Assembly (NCBI GenBank): GCA_027022365.1 | Contig: JALVYU010000026.1 | Span: forward strand, 372,001 to 436,000 | Direction of reading: 5' to 3' | From: Desulfurococcales archaeon | Lineage (GTDB): Archaea > Thermoproteota > Thermoprotei_A > Sulfolobales > Desulfurococcaceae | Length of the DNA stretch: 64,000 nucleotides | In this document: positions 57,835 to 61,293 of the stretch, piece after piece | Position numbering within the stretch: the stretch's first letter is position 1 | Layout: every line of letters begins with the position of its first letter | Notes under the pieces: generated by a model | The model's database searches: none | What the model saw: the letters and a program-made list of their open reading frames with translations, nothing else | What the model was told of the DNA's origin: nothing | Program-made: the position numbers and the translations under genes

Positions 57835-57911
57835 TTAACTCTCGCAGGAGAACAATAATTTTAAAACCACATATATCATTCAAAATCAACAGTGCCTAAG
57901 TGGTGATAGGA

Positions 57912-58124
57912 ATGGGTAAAGTAAGAACGAAAATGATCAAAAGAACCGCTAGAGAGCTACTTGAGAAGTATCCTGACGTATTCACAAATGATTTTGAGCA
58001 CAACAAGAAAGTAGTTAGTCAGCTCGTTATAACAGGATCAAAACGTGTGAGAAATCAGATAGCGGGTTACATAACGCACCTAGTGAATATAAGGCTTAAG
58101 CGTGAAGCACGTACAATTTCTTAA
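57912..58124 (+). CDS. rps17e: Ribosomal protein eS17
   Basis: The 70-residue basic protein has MGKVRTKMIKRTARELLEKYP and ends in TRNQIAGYITHLV-type sequence (here RNQIAGYITHLVNI), the standard eS17. It is a small-subunit ribosomal protein. ATG at 57912 follows GGTGATAGG; an in-frame GTG at 57900 is inside that motif. Followed after 23 bases by the next gene. Confidence 0.95.
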   Translation: MGKVRTKMIKRTARELLEKYPDVFTNDFEHNKKVVSQLVITGSKRVRNQIAGYITHLVNIRLKREARTIS

Positions 58125-58147: not shown

Positions 58148-58675
58148 TTGAAATTGGATAAAATTAAAGCATCTAATGATACATCACATCTTTCAATCAA
58201 TATCGAGATTCAAGGAAGCAGAATCCTAATTAACTACTTGGGTAAAGAGATCAAGGCATACATTTATGTATGTAATGGAACAAGAAAGACTATCGATGAA
58301 GAACTAAAGGAACTAGATATCTCCCCATATCATCCCATAGCTATTATACCTTTTACTATGATAAATTCCATTTGGCAAATAATATTTGGTATAATCAGTT
58401 ACGAAATTATATACACATATCGGAAAAACCTATATAATAAAATTAAAAACAAGGGGCTACTCCTATCTATGCTGATAACGGGCGAGCGACAGCTAAGTGA
58501 TATTATCAATAGACTAAGAGAGGAGTATGCCCGCTCTAACTCAAGATACTTTGTGGTTTCTCTTCAAGACCCCGTAATCCTGCCTGATAAATGTAGTGAA
58601 GATGTTCAGCTCAATACATCTATTGAGCCGATGCATCTTGTAAAAAACGTAAATAATTATCTGAGATTAGTATGA
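58148..58675 (+). CDS. Unknown protein, possibly Cgi121-like KEOPS subunit
   Basis: The 175-residue protein starts TTG after AGGTTAG. The middle (IIPFTMINSIWQIIFGI..., then KGLLLSMLITGERQLSDIINRL) resembles Cgi121/TPRKB, the KEOPS subunit that binds tRNA for t6A synthesis, where an L.G.RQI motif is typical. The match is partial and includes no strict signature, so treat it as a guess. It is AT-rich and lies 23 bases after eS17 on the same strand. Confidence 0.5.
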   Translation: MKLDKIKASNDTSHLSINIEIQGSRILINYLGKEIKAYIYVCNGTRKTIDEELKELDISPYHPIAIIPFTMINSIWQIIFGIISYEIIYTYRKNLYNKIKNKGLLLSMLITGERQLSDIINRLREEYARSNSRYFVVSLQDPVILPDKCSEDVQLNTSIEPMHLVKNVNNYLRLV

Positions 58676-58689
58676 GGGCCCGGTAAAAA

Positions 58690-58782
58690 TTACCATTCTT
58701 CCTCTTCTTCCCACCACTCTTCTTCCTCTTCCCATTCTTCCTCTTCTTCTTCCCACCATTCCTCCTCGAGGTATACCACCAT
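58690..58782 (-). CDS. 30-aa Glu/Trp-repeat microprotein
   Basis: A minus-strand ATG frame of 30 codons with TAA stop. After MVVYL every residue is Glu or Trp: Trp at 9, 10, 17, 23, 24 and 30, and 19 Glu in runs of 3, 6, 5 and 5. Trp spacing is seven in two interleaved series (10-17-24 and 23-30). GGGGGAT is a good ribosome binding site before the ATG, and TTTTAATATC (about 58833-58842 complement) a plausible TATA. Other frames give Arg/Gly or low-complexity Phe/Pro without such signals. No family known to me. Confidence 0.6.
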   Translation of the reverse strand: MVVYLEEEWWEEEEEEWEEEEEWWEEEEEW

Positions 58783-58975
58783 AAATTATCCCCCGTGTAT
58801 CTGTTGGCCCATAATGGAATTGGCTCCTAAATGATATTAAAACGTATGGTTGTATCAAAAAGGCCGCCTACTATATATAGTAAGGTTCTTGTTGATAGGC
58901 AATTTTTAATAACCCATATGTTACAATCCATATGCGTAACTCTTGGTAAAAGATTAACAGTTAATGGGGACAGAT

Positions 58976-59260
58976 ATGGTCAGATTTTGTCCCAGATGTG
59001 GTGGACCAATGGTTCCCGTCAAGAAAGACAAGCAAGTATATCTTAGATGTCTCAGATGCGGCTACACGATCAGGGCCGATAAAAAAGCTGCGGAATCCTA
59101 TAGAATGAAGTACCAGGTTGAGGAAGATAAGAGAGTTATAACTTCAAAAGCCACGGAAGCTAAACGCCTTGCCCTTTCCCCAGAAGAGAGAGAAATTCTT
59201 AGGGAATACTACGAAGTATTTCTTGAAACGTTTCAGGAAGAGGAAGGCGGTGAGGATTAA
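58976..59260 (+). CDS. RpoM/TFS N-ribbon-like protein lacking the catalytic ribbon
   Basis: The 94-residue protein starts MVRFCPRCGGPMVP and has one zinc ribbon (C5, C8, C25, C28), as at the N-terminus of TFS and RPB9. The C-terminal TFIIS-type ribbon with its acidic Asp-Glu loop is absent; instead there is a charged helix ending EEEGGED. It might bind RNA polymerase without cleavage-inducing activity. ATG at 58976 follows GGGGA by five bases; an in-frame ATG at 58964 is less likely. TTTTTAATA near 58905 may be its TATA box. Confidence 0.8.
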   Translation: MVRFCPRCGGPMVPVKKDKQVYLRCLRCGYTIRADKKAAESYRMKYQVEEDKRVITSKATEAKRLALSPEEREILREYYEVFLETFQEEEGGED

Positions 59261-59340: not shown

Positions 59341-59469
59341 CCGGCATAAATTACTCTACTAAAATATCCTTTAATAACTAGATTCTCGGTTTTTCTTGAA
59401 TTGAATGGATTGAACTAAGTAAACTACTCTAGGCTTTGCCTGAACATTACATATAGCGGGTTGATATCA

Positions 59470-61293
59470 ATGACAAGGATAGCTGTGGTCGACAGAGAAT
59501 ACTGTAAACCTAATAAGTGTGGCTTAGAATGCATACGCTTCTGCCCAGTAAACAAGAGTCGCCGAGGAACTGCGATTGAATTATCCAACGATGGGCGCCA
59601 TGTAATAATACATGAAGATACATGTATAGGGTGCGGGATATGCGTTAGAAAATGCCCGTTCAAAGCGATAAGCATAGTCAATCTACCGGATGAGCTCGAG
59701 AAAAACGTTATCCATAGGTATGGCGAAAACATGTTCAAACTCTATAATCTCCCAATGATCCGGCCCGGTAAGATAATGGGCATAATAGGGCGGAATGGAA
59801 GTGGTAAAACGACCAGTGTGAAAATTCTGTCTGGATTATTAAAGCCGAACCTTGGGAGATACGATGATCCCCCCGAATGGGACGAGATAATTAAGGCCTT
59901 CAGAGGTACTGAGATACAGAACTATTTGAAGAAACTAGCCAATGGCGAGATCAAAGCAGTTGTTAAAATACAGTATGTCGAGCTCGCAAAACGTATGCTG
60001 AAGGGCCGTGTCGGCGAATTATTGAAGAAGGCTGATGAAAGAGGACTATATAGGGAAATCGTTGAAGCATTAGGACTTAAGCACTTGTCCGATAGAAAGA
60101 TAACCAATCTTAGTGGCGGTGAGTTGCAGAAGTTCTTAGTTGCTGCTGTACTGTTGAAAGACGCCGACTCATACTTCTTTGACGAGCCATGCAGCTATCT
60201 AGACATCAGAGAACGAATGCGTGTTGCTAGAGCTATTAGAGAATTCATCGATGTAAGTAAGAAGTATGTTGCAGTAATAGAGCACGACCTAATGATCCTC
60301 GATTACATTAGCGATCAAATATCGGTCATCTTTGGCGAGCCAGGAGTCTACGGCATTGTTTCTAAGCCCTACGGTACCAGGGCAGGTATTAATAATTACC
60401 TTGAGGGCTATCTGCCGGCGGAGAACATGAGGATTCGGAGAGAACCAATAATATTCAAGATAACTGTATCCCAACAACAACAGAGTACAGAAGAGTATCC
60501 TATTGTTAAATGGACAGATATGATGAAAAAGTATGAGAGTTCAGGTTTCATTCTACGTGTTGAGGGCGGAGAAATATATCCCGGTGAAGTATTAGGTGTG
60601 CTGGGTCCTAACGGAATAGGTAAAACAACATTTGTAAAAATACTAGCCGGGATACTCAGGCCCGATGAAGGGGATGTCATTATATCTGTCGAAAAGATAA
60701 GCGTTAAGCCTCAAGAACTTTCACCAAAGATTTTCCCCGAGGAAACAGTTGCGGCTAATCTTCGTAGAGCGTCACCAGAGGCGGTGAACCCAGCGTCTTG
60801 GATCTACGCCGAACTAGTAAGAAAACTCGGCCTTAACAAAATGATGGAGAGACGAGTTGATGAGCTCAGTGGTGGTGAGCTACAAAAATTAGCTGTTGCG
60901 GTCGCATTGGCGACGCCTGCAGATTTATATTTACTTGATGAACCATCGGCTTATCTCGATATTGAGGAAAGACTGGCTATTGCTAAAGTGATCCGGAGAA
61001 TCATTGAGGAGAAAAGGAAAACAGCGCTCGTAGTAGAGCATGATCTGATGTTGCAAAACTTTGTGGCAAATAGAATTATGGTCTTCAAAGGTATACCTGG
61101 GAAAGAAGGATACACGACATCACCGCTGGATATTAGCGCGGGATTCAATGAACTCTTGAAAGAGCTGGATGTTACGGTAAGAAGGGATCCGCAGACCGGC
61201 AGACCTAGAGTAAATAAACCGGGCTCTTATCTCGACAGGTACCAGAAAAGTATTGGACAATACTACCTCCCCGAGATTGTGTCGGAGAAATAA
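59470..61293 (+). CDS. Ribosome recycling ATPase ABCE1 (Rli1)
   Basis: The 607-residue protein has an N-terminal iron-sulfur domain (CxxxxC...CP and CIGCGICVRKCP for two [4Fe-4S] clusters), then two ABC domains: Walker A GRNGSGKTT and GPNGIGKTT, signatures LSGGELQ in both, and FDEPCSYLD / LDEPSAYLD. It splits ribosomes after termination. ATG at 59470 follows GGGTTGAT; a TTG at 59461 is within that motif. Highly conserved and of normal length. Confidence 0.97.
   Translation: MTRIAVVDREYCKPNKCGLECIRFCPVNKSRRGTAIELSNDGRHVIIHEDTCIGCGICVRKCPFKAISIVNLPDELEKNVIHRYGENMFKLYNLPMIRPGKIMGIIGRNGSGKTTSVKILSGLLKPNLGRYDDPPEWDEIIKAFRGTEIQNYLKKLANGEIKAVVKIQYVELAKRMLKGRVGELLKKADERGLYREIVEALGLKHLSDRKITNLSGGELQKFLVAAVLLKDADSYFFDEPCSYLDIRERMRVARAIREFIDVSKKYVAVIEHDLMILDYISDQISVIFGEPGVYGIVSKPYGTRAGINNYLEGYLPAENMRIRREPIIFKITVSQQQQSTEEYPIVKWTDMMKKYESSGFILRVEGGEIYPGEVLGVLGPNGIGKTTFVKILAGILRPDEGDVIISVEKISVKPQELSPKIFPEETVAANLRRASPEAVNPASWIYAELVRKLGLNKMMERRVDELSGGELQKLAVAVALATPADLYLLDEPSAYLDIEERLAIAKVIRRIIEEKRKTALVVEHDLMLQNFVANRIMVFKGIPGKEGYTTSPLDISAGFNELLKELDVTVRRDPQTGRPRVNKPGSYLDRYQKSIGQYYLPEIVSEK

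Follow-up and report, generated by a model that had tools for sequence, protein, structure and literature searches.

A glutamate- and tryptophan-built microprotein family linked to the ABCE1 gene in Thermoproteota

In bacterial SSB and T7 gp2.5, acidic C-terminal tails carry a terminal aromatic residue, which docks on basic pockets. DSS1/SEM1 is a DNA/ssDNA-binding-protein mimic, which occupies a surface of RPA. The N-terminus of yeast eIF3j (Hcr1), MSWDDEAINGSMGNDDAVLMDSWDAEIGDDEPVMQSWDAEEEE, is acidic and contains three SWD motifs; in a 2021 cryo-EM paper, the eIF3j N-terminus reportedly contacts ABCE1 on the 43S complex. Archaea, to our knowledge, are without eIF3. In eukaryotic recycling, eIF3j/Hcr1 assists ABCE1, and the modulator of ABCE1 release from the archaeal 30S subunit has been stated as an open question (PMC7196836). 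Translation is aborted by N-terminal Asp/Glu runs, in eukaryotes as well as in bacteria; the MgtL leader exploits them, and pauses at acidic runs are a target of EttA, an ABC-F ATPase (PMC9718836, PMC11282234).

The sequence analysed here, indicated as "the window", is the whole 64,000-nucleotide stretch from a Desulfurococcales archaeon. Its minus strand contains, at 58690..58782, a gene for a 30-residue microprotein, called EW in the following. The ORF, running from 58782 to 58690 with an ATG start, is translated into MVVYLEEEWWEEEEEEWEEEEEWWEEEEEW, followed by a TAA stop: five ordinary residues (MVVYL) precede 19 Glu and 6 Trp, the latter at positions 9, 10, 17, 23, 24 and 30. The ORF translation bears out this composition as the original prediction had given it, with no strand named.

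EW resembles eIF3j/Hcr1 in its short acidic segment with repeated Trp (SWDDE, DSWDAE and QSWDAEEEE in the latter), and eIF3j is functionally linked to ABCE1 (PMC7196836). The eIF3j chain, however, is 258–265 aa long in PDB and features dimerising helices and a basic C-terminus, absent from EW, whose median length is 29 aa; spacing and residue choice also differ, EW using Glu and eIF3j Ser-Trp-Asp. Because of these differences in length and domains, EW is not a member of the eIF3j family. Sequence homology between the two does not rise above noise in PDB searches up to E=10, a test limited by low complexity, which likewise prevents homology tests of EW with DSS1 and with the Asgard ORFs described below. 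DSS1/SEM1 is, like EW, small, acidic and Trp-containing, and it is a disordered partner protein, as EW may be; but it has about 70 aa, a C-terminal helix and a motif of fixed sequence, neither of which was found in EW by Pfam and PDB searches. MgtL and other leaders of intrinsic ribosome destabilisation share with EW the form of a short acidic frame upstream of a gene, and are tied to ribosome stability; MgtL acts in cis and is not built of Glu and Trp, whereas EW persists away from any conserved downstream gene. The SSB and gp2.5 tails combine, as EW does, an acidic run with a terminal aromatic residue, but are parts of larger proteins, while EW stands alone.

Coding potential and conservation of the EW gene

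Within the 64 kb, the longest run of Glu and Trp is the one of 25 residues in the EW frame, against 4 elsewhere; in 60 Markov-shuffled windows such runs never exceed 4, and the EW run is thus far beyond chance. The original prediction had also placed a Shine-Dalgarno sequence and a TATA-like element upstream of the gene. Both are present on the minus strand: a weak Shine-Dalgarno-like element, GGGGGAT, at 58788..58794, 5 nt upstream of the start and kept in congeners, and a TATA box, TTTAATA, at 58835..58841, which gives EW a promoter of its own and is found at the same position in congeners. In other genera of the family, TATA boxes fall between -52 and -65 relative to the start codons taken for the scan, with Shine-Dalgarno matches after them; the scan start for the window is one codon inside the ATG, hence its TATA box is at -59 from the ATG. 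In three Pyrobaculum/Thermoproteus-like genomes the EW TATA box is closer, at -27 or -28, a distance typical of leaderless transcripts. Of 173 distinct EW starts, 64 show a contiguous Shine-Dalgarno match of at least 6 bases, compared with 5.7 expected from shuffles.

Syntenic DNA from related genomes was retrieved by using the RpoM-like gene as anchor. The comparison of the same locus in relatives, which the original prediction had proposed, shows the frame to be conserved: E/W-only sequences recur in the congeneric genomes L003, L005, L007 and L008 and, beyond the genus, in the family members L011-L015, L021-L023, L028, L029, L031 and L032. EW and the RpoM-like gene occupy different strands in every case, and the frame invariably closes with Glu-Trp-stop. 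Within the E/W part, five congeners differ at 8 codons, each time by a GAA/GAG switch, which is synonymous (8/8); under neutrality, about a quarter of the changes is expected to be synonymous (one change per codon, transitions only, no selection). EW is almost certainly a real, conserved protein.

Distribution of the family and its genomic neighbourhood

Genomes were searched at the DNA level with the pattern W-E-E-E-(0-3)-W-(stop or W). Of 214 genomes from the order, 121 match it, as do 139 of 398 sampled from the phylum Thermoproteota; the reversed control gave few matches. The matches are stand-alone ORFs, usually of 20–45 aa (longer in some families), where a short hydrophobic start is followed by an E/W body. 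The acidic part consists of 63% Glu, 16% Trp and 13% Asp; in Sulfolobaceae-like and Bathyarchaeota members Asp, Phe, Leu and Gly are mixed in. Trp is the C-terminal residue in 136 of 173 members, while the spacing between Trp residues ranges from 1 to more than 12, mostly 4–9, with many WW pairs. When 30 ABCE1 loci from pattern-negative genomes were inspected, ten further EW variants were found beside ABCE1, by synteny alone, and a looser pattern revealed longer E/W/F/L forms in two further families. Four named Bathyarchaeota records also feature EW upstream of ABCE1. In families f5 and f6 (L230, L231, L233, L234, L237-L240), proteins of about 45–75 aa made of E/W/F/L/P are present; they look like enlarged forms of the microprotein, and an internal duplication can be seen in some.

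Searches with EW gave no match in Pfam, NCBIfam or PDB (the latter up to E=10), and literature searches found no protein like it, in agreement with the original prediction, to which no described family of this kind was known. A viral origin, or a role as viral decoy, is rejected: a related pattern, run on 2.9 million viral contigs, produced 10 matches, none of them an E/W protein. EW is an undescribed, ancient family, written in a near two-letter alphabet of Glu and Trp, to which Asp and a few Phe or Leu are added in some lineages.

In the window, four genes around EW, all on the plus strand, were considered. Ribosomal protein eS17 (57900..58124; PF00833, E=1.7e-21) belongs to the same conserved neighbourhood. 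A 175-aa ORF (58148..58675), conserved in the window's family, converges on EW; it is possibly, and tentatively, a diverged Cgi121, a KEOPS subunit, since CGI-121 is assigned to the syntenic gene, the usual left neighbour of EW in other families, and hhalign gives a weak match to Cgi121 (probability 54%, P=1.3e-4). On the other side, a 98-aa RpoM-like zinc-ribbon protein (58964..59260) is divergent from EW; in several other families its gene separates EW from ABCE1, all being co-oriented. It is a second, shorter paralogue, as a different TFS/RpoM-type match is found elsewhere in the genome, at G000:C26:568985-569209, and its vicinity to ABCE1 suggests a function different from the cleavage of transcripts. 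The ribosome-recycling ATPase ABCE1/Rli1 follows at 59461..61293 (PDB 6tmf chain d, E=1.6e-199) and is the most constant neighbour of EW. The original prediction had placed EW next to ribosomal and polymerase-like genes: eS17 and the RpoM-like gene are indeed there, but the telling neighbour is ABCE1, adjoining in about 20 families.

Neighbourhoods were compared in 41 context loci, one or few for each family, picked non-randomly, by pattern alone, to cover the families. ABCE1 is the commonest neighbour, within 1.4 kb of EW in 28 of the 41, across about 20 families. In 26, EW is directly upstream of ABCE1, or of the RpoM-like gene plus ABCE1, on the same strand, with a gap to ABCE1 that is often 46–130 nt, or else includes the RpoM-like gene. 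The remaining 13 loci, including Pyrobaculum-like and Saccharolobus-like ones, do not have ABCE1 beside EW; two of them (L186, L191) are short records. The wider gene order is eS17, a ThiS/MoaD-like gene, a phosphoribosyltransferase, Cgi121, EW, the RpoM-like gene, ABCE1, fructose-bisphosphatase and triosephosphate isomerase. The window retains it, with EW alone reversed; in its family, EW is separated from ABCE1, often inverted and under its own promoter, and its composition is still E/W-only. EW is under selection for its amino-acid sequence, is widespread and is linked to ABCE1.

In Asgard genomes, the strict pattern gave mostly chance matches. A looser D/E-W pattern was positive in 46 of 119 Asgard genomes; the outgroup, the phylum to which an Archaeoglobus MAG belongs, gave 10 positive genomes out of 120. 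Many of the Asgard matches are clear Asp/Glu/Trp ORFs of 30–75 aa, for which homology to EW is undemonstrable at such complexity. They are not located beside ABCE1. A basic family of about 250–320 aa, with no significant Pfam match, is neighbour to these ORFs in 13 of the 34 context loci from Asgard, and to EW in one Thermoproteota family (for example L360:6365-7256 and relatives, and L169:6131-6880). As a universal partner of EW this basic neighbour, of about 280 aa, is rejected: among 45 genomes searched, confident matches are found only in f23 genomes and in one Asgard genome. Where ABCE1 is not a neighbour, genes of polyamine/hypusine metabolism recur (L167, L194; L345, L347, L349; L358-L360, L369-L372). 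Genes like those for AdoMet decarboxylase, pyruvoyl arginine decarboxylase and MTA phosphorylase were recognized by eye, and deoxyhypusine synthase, assigned by Pfam, is found among these neighbours together with a pyruvoyl arginine decarboxylase-like gene. Their recurrence near W-acidic ORFs may be due to chance.

Alternative explanations

A 21-nt tandem repeat, called by TRF at EW, is what could be expected if the frame were non-functional, purine-rich DNA of low complexity, open by accident. This explanation can practically be dismissed: codon changes in the E/W part are restricted to synonymous third positions; start, Shine-Dalgarno, TATA box and Trp-stop end are conserved across a phylum, in a fixed neighbourhood; and none of the viral contigs contains an E/W protein. 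The codon, promoter and spread tests thus reject the chance, or purine-repeat, model. Very improbable, too, is a model in which Trp lines one side of an amphipathic helix and the peptide decoys a basic partner. AlphaFold does predict a single helix for the 30-mer alone (pLDDT 93.6), but the heptad, one-face arrangement of Trp claimed in the original prediction fails: the helical moment of Trp is no better than in shuffled order, either for the window peptide (p=0.14) or for the family (mean p=0.52), and Trp spacing is variable. When EW was fused in frame to the ABCE1 of L156, whose single TAG was read as Gly, the EW part was non-helical (pLDDT about 29) and had no confident contact with ABCE1. 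AlphaFold predictions, going from one helix alone to a pLDDT near 29 when fused, are uninformative for EW; it is the negative Trp moment test that rejects the helix face. Variable spacing, WW pairs and the Trp C-terminus fit better with a multivalent disordered binder than with one face of a helix.

In 26 of the 41 loci EW is placed just ahead of ABCE1, or of the RpoM-like gene plus ABCE1, and co-oriented, as anticipated for a leader that encodes an acidic peptide. Its Glu-rich frame, when translated, would destabilise or pause the ribosome (intrinsic ribosome destabilisation), report recycling capacity and control the downstream ABCE1, the peptide being a by-product. Known aborts at acidic runs, the MgtL leader and the action of EttA on such pauses (PMC9718836, PMC11282234) make this conceivable, if rather unlikely. 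The cis position is lost in the window's family, where EW, inverted or displaced and with its own TATA box, is still E/W-only, as well as in Saccharolobus-like genomes and in Pyrobaculum-like ones, where EW looks leaderless, is far from ABCE1 and is no less E/W-only; moreover, a leader needs neither a C-terminal Trp nor a conserved Trp count. A strict cis-leader is rejected, as displaced or inverted copies retain their sequence; a dual role, as leader and as protein, is possible. We give a similarly low chance to a mimic of nucleic acids or basic proteins, an aromatic-stacking polyanion lying on the RNA/DNA-binding surfaces of ribosomal proteins, RNA polymerase or chromatin proteins, in the way of DSS1/SEM1 on RPA, for which the linkage to ABCE1 would reflect a general role in translation. 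The Glu, Trp and Asp content of EW, the basic family of about 280 aa adjoining the Asgard ORFs and a weak match of the human eIF3j N-terminus to SEM1 (E=0.8) are in its favor, but no nucleic-acid protein accompanies EW nearly as constantly as ABCE1 does, and the basic family is absent from most EW-bearing genomes.

A candidate partner of ABCE1

The favoured reading, held with a little less than even confidence, takes EW for a disordered Trp-acidic chain that makes multivalent contacts with ABCE1, or with the 30S-ABCE1 complex, in the manner of the SWD-motif N-terminus of eIF3j/Hcr1. Since EW may stand apart from ABCE1, or inverted to it, with its own promoter, and yet remain E/W-only, it probably acts in trans; conservation of displaced and inverted copies, together with the phylum-wide linkage, points to a trans-acting protein serving ABCE1. 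As the eIF3j/Hcr1 N-terminus is both acidic, with SWD motifs, and of assistance to ABCE1, EW may work like that segment. The partner of EW would be either ABCE1 or the post-splitting 30S-ABCE1 complex. Trp side chains would provide short sticky anchors, spaced by acidic residues, and EW would dock on basic patches of ABCE1 or of the ribosomal GTPase centre, tuning ATP turnover or release of ABCE1, as the acidic N-terminus of eIF3j/Hcr1 assists its eukaryotic counterpart. We infer that EW is expressed, binds ABCE1 and affects recycling. Points against a partner of ABCE1 are the 13 loci without a nearby ABCE1, the separation of Asgard W-acidic ORFs from it, the absence of docking in the fusion model and the frequent grouping, in archaeal neighbourhoods, of housekeeping genes with a merely loose relation to each other.

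Being short and low in complexity, a phylum-wide family built almost exclusively of two amino acids apparently escaped annotation: low-complexity filters, as EW shows, hide real genes. It is a speculative and rather improbable extension that EW, which would control recycling throughout Thermoproteota and have Asp/Trp versions in Asgard, could have foreshadowed in archaea the Trp-acidic segment by which eIF3j binds ABCE1, as its functional forerunner and perhaps its ancestor. EW may bear on the origin of the eukaryotic link between eIF3j and ABCE1 and, located beside ABCE1, is a candidate, concrete and open to test, for the so far missing modulator of ribosome recycling in archaea.
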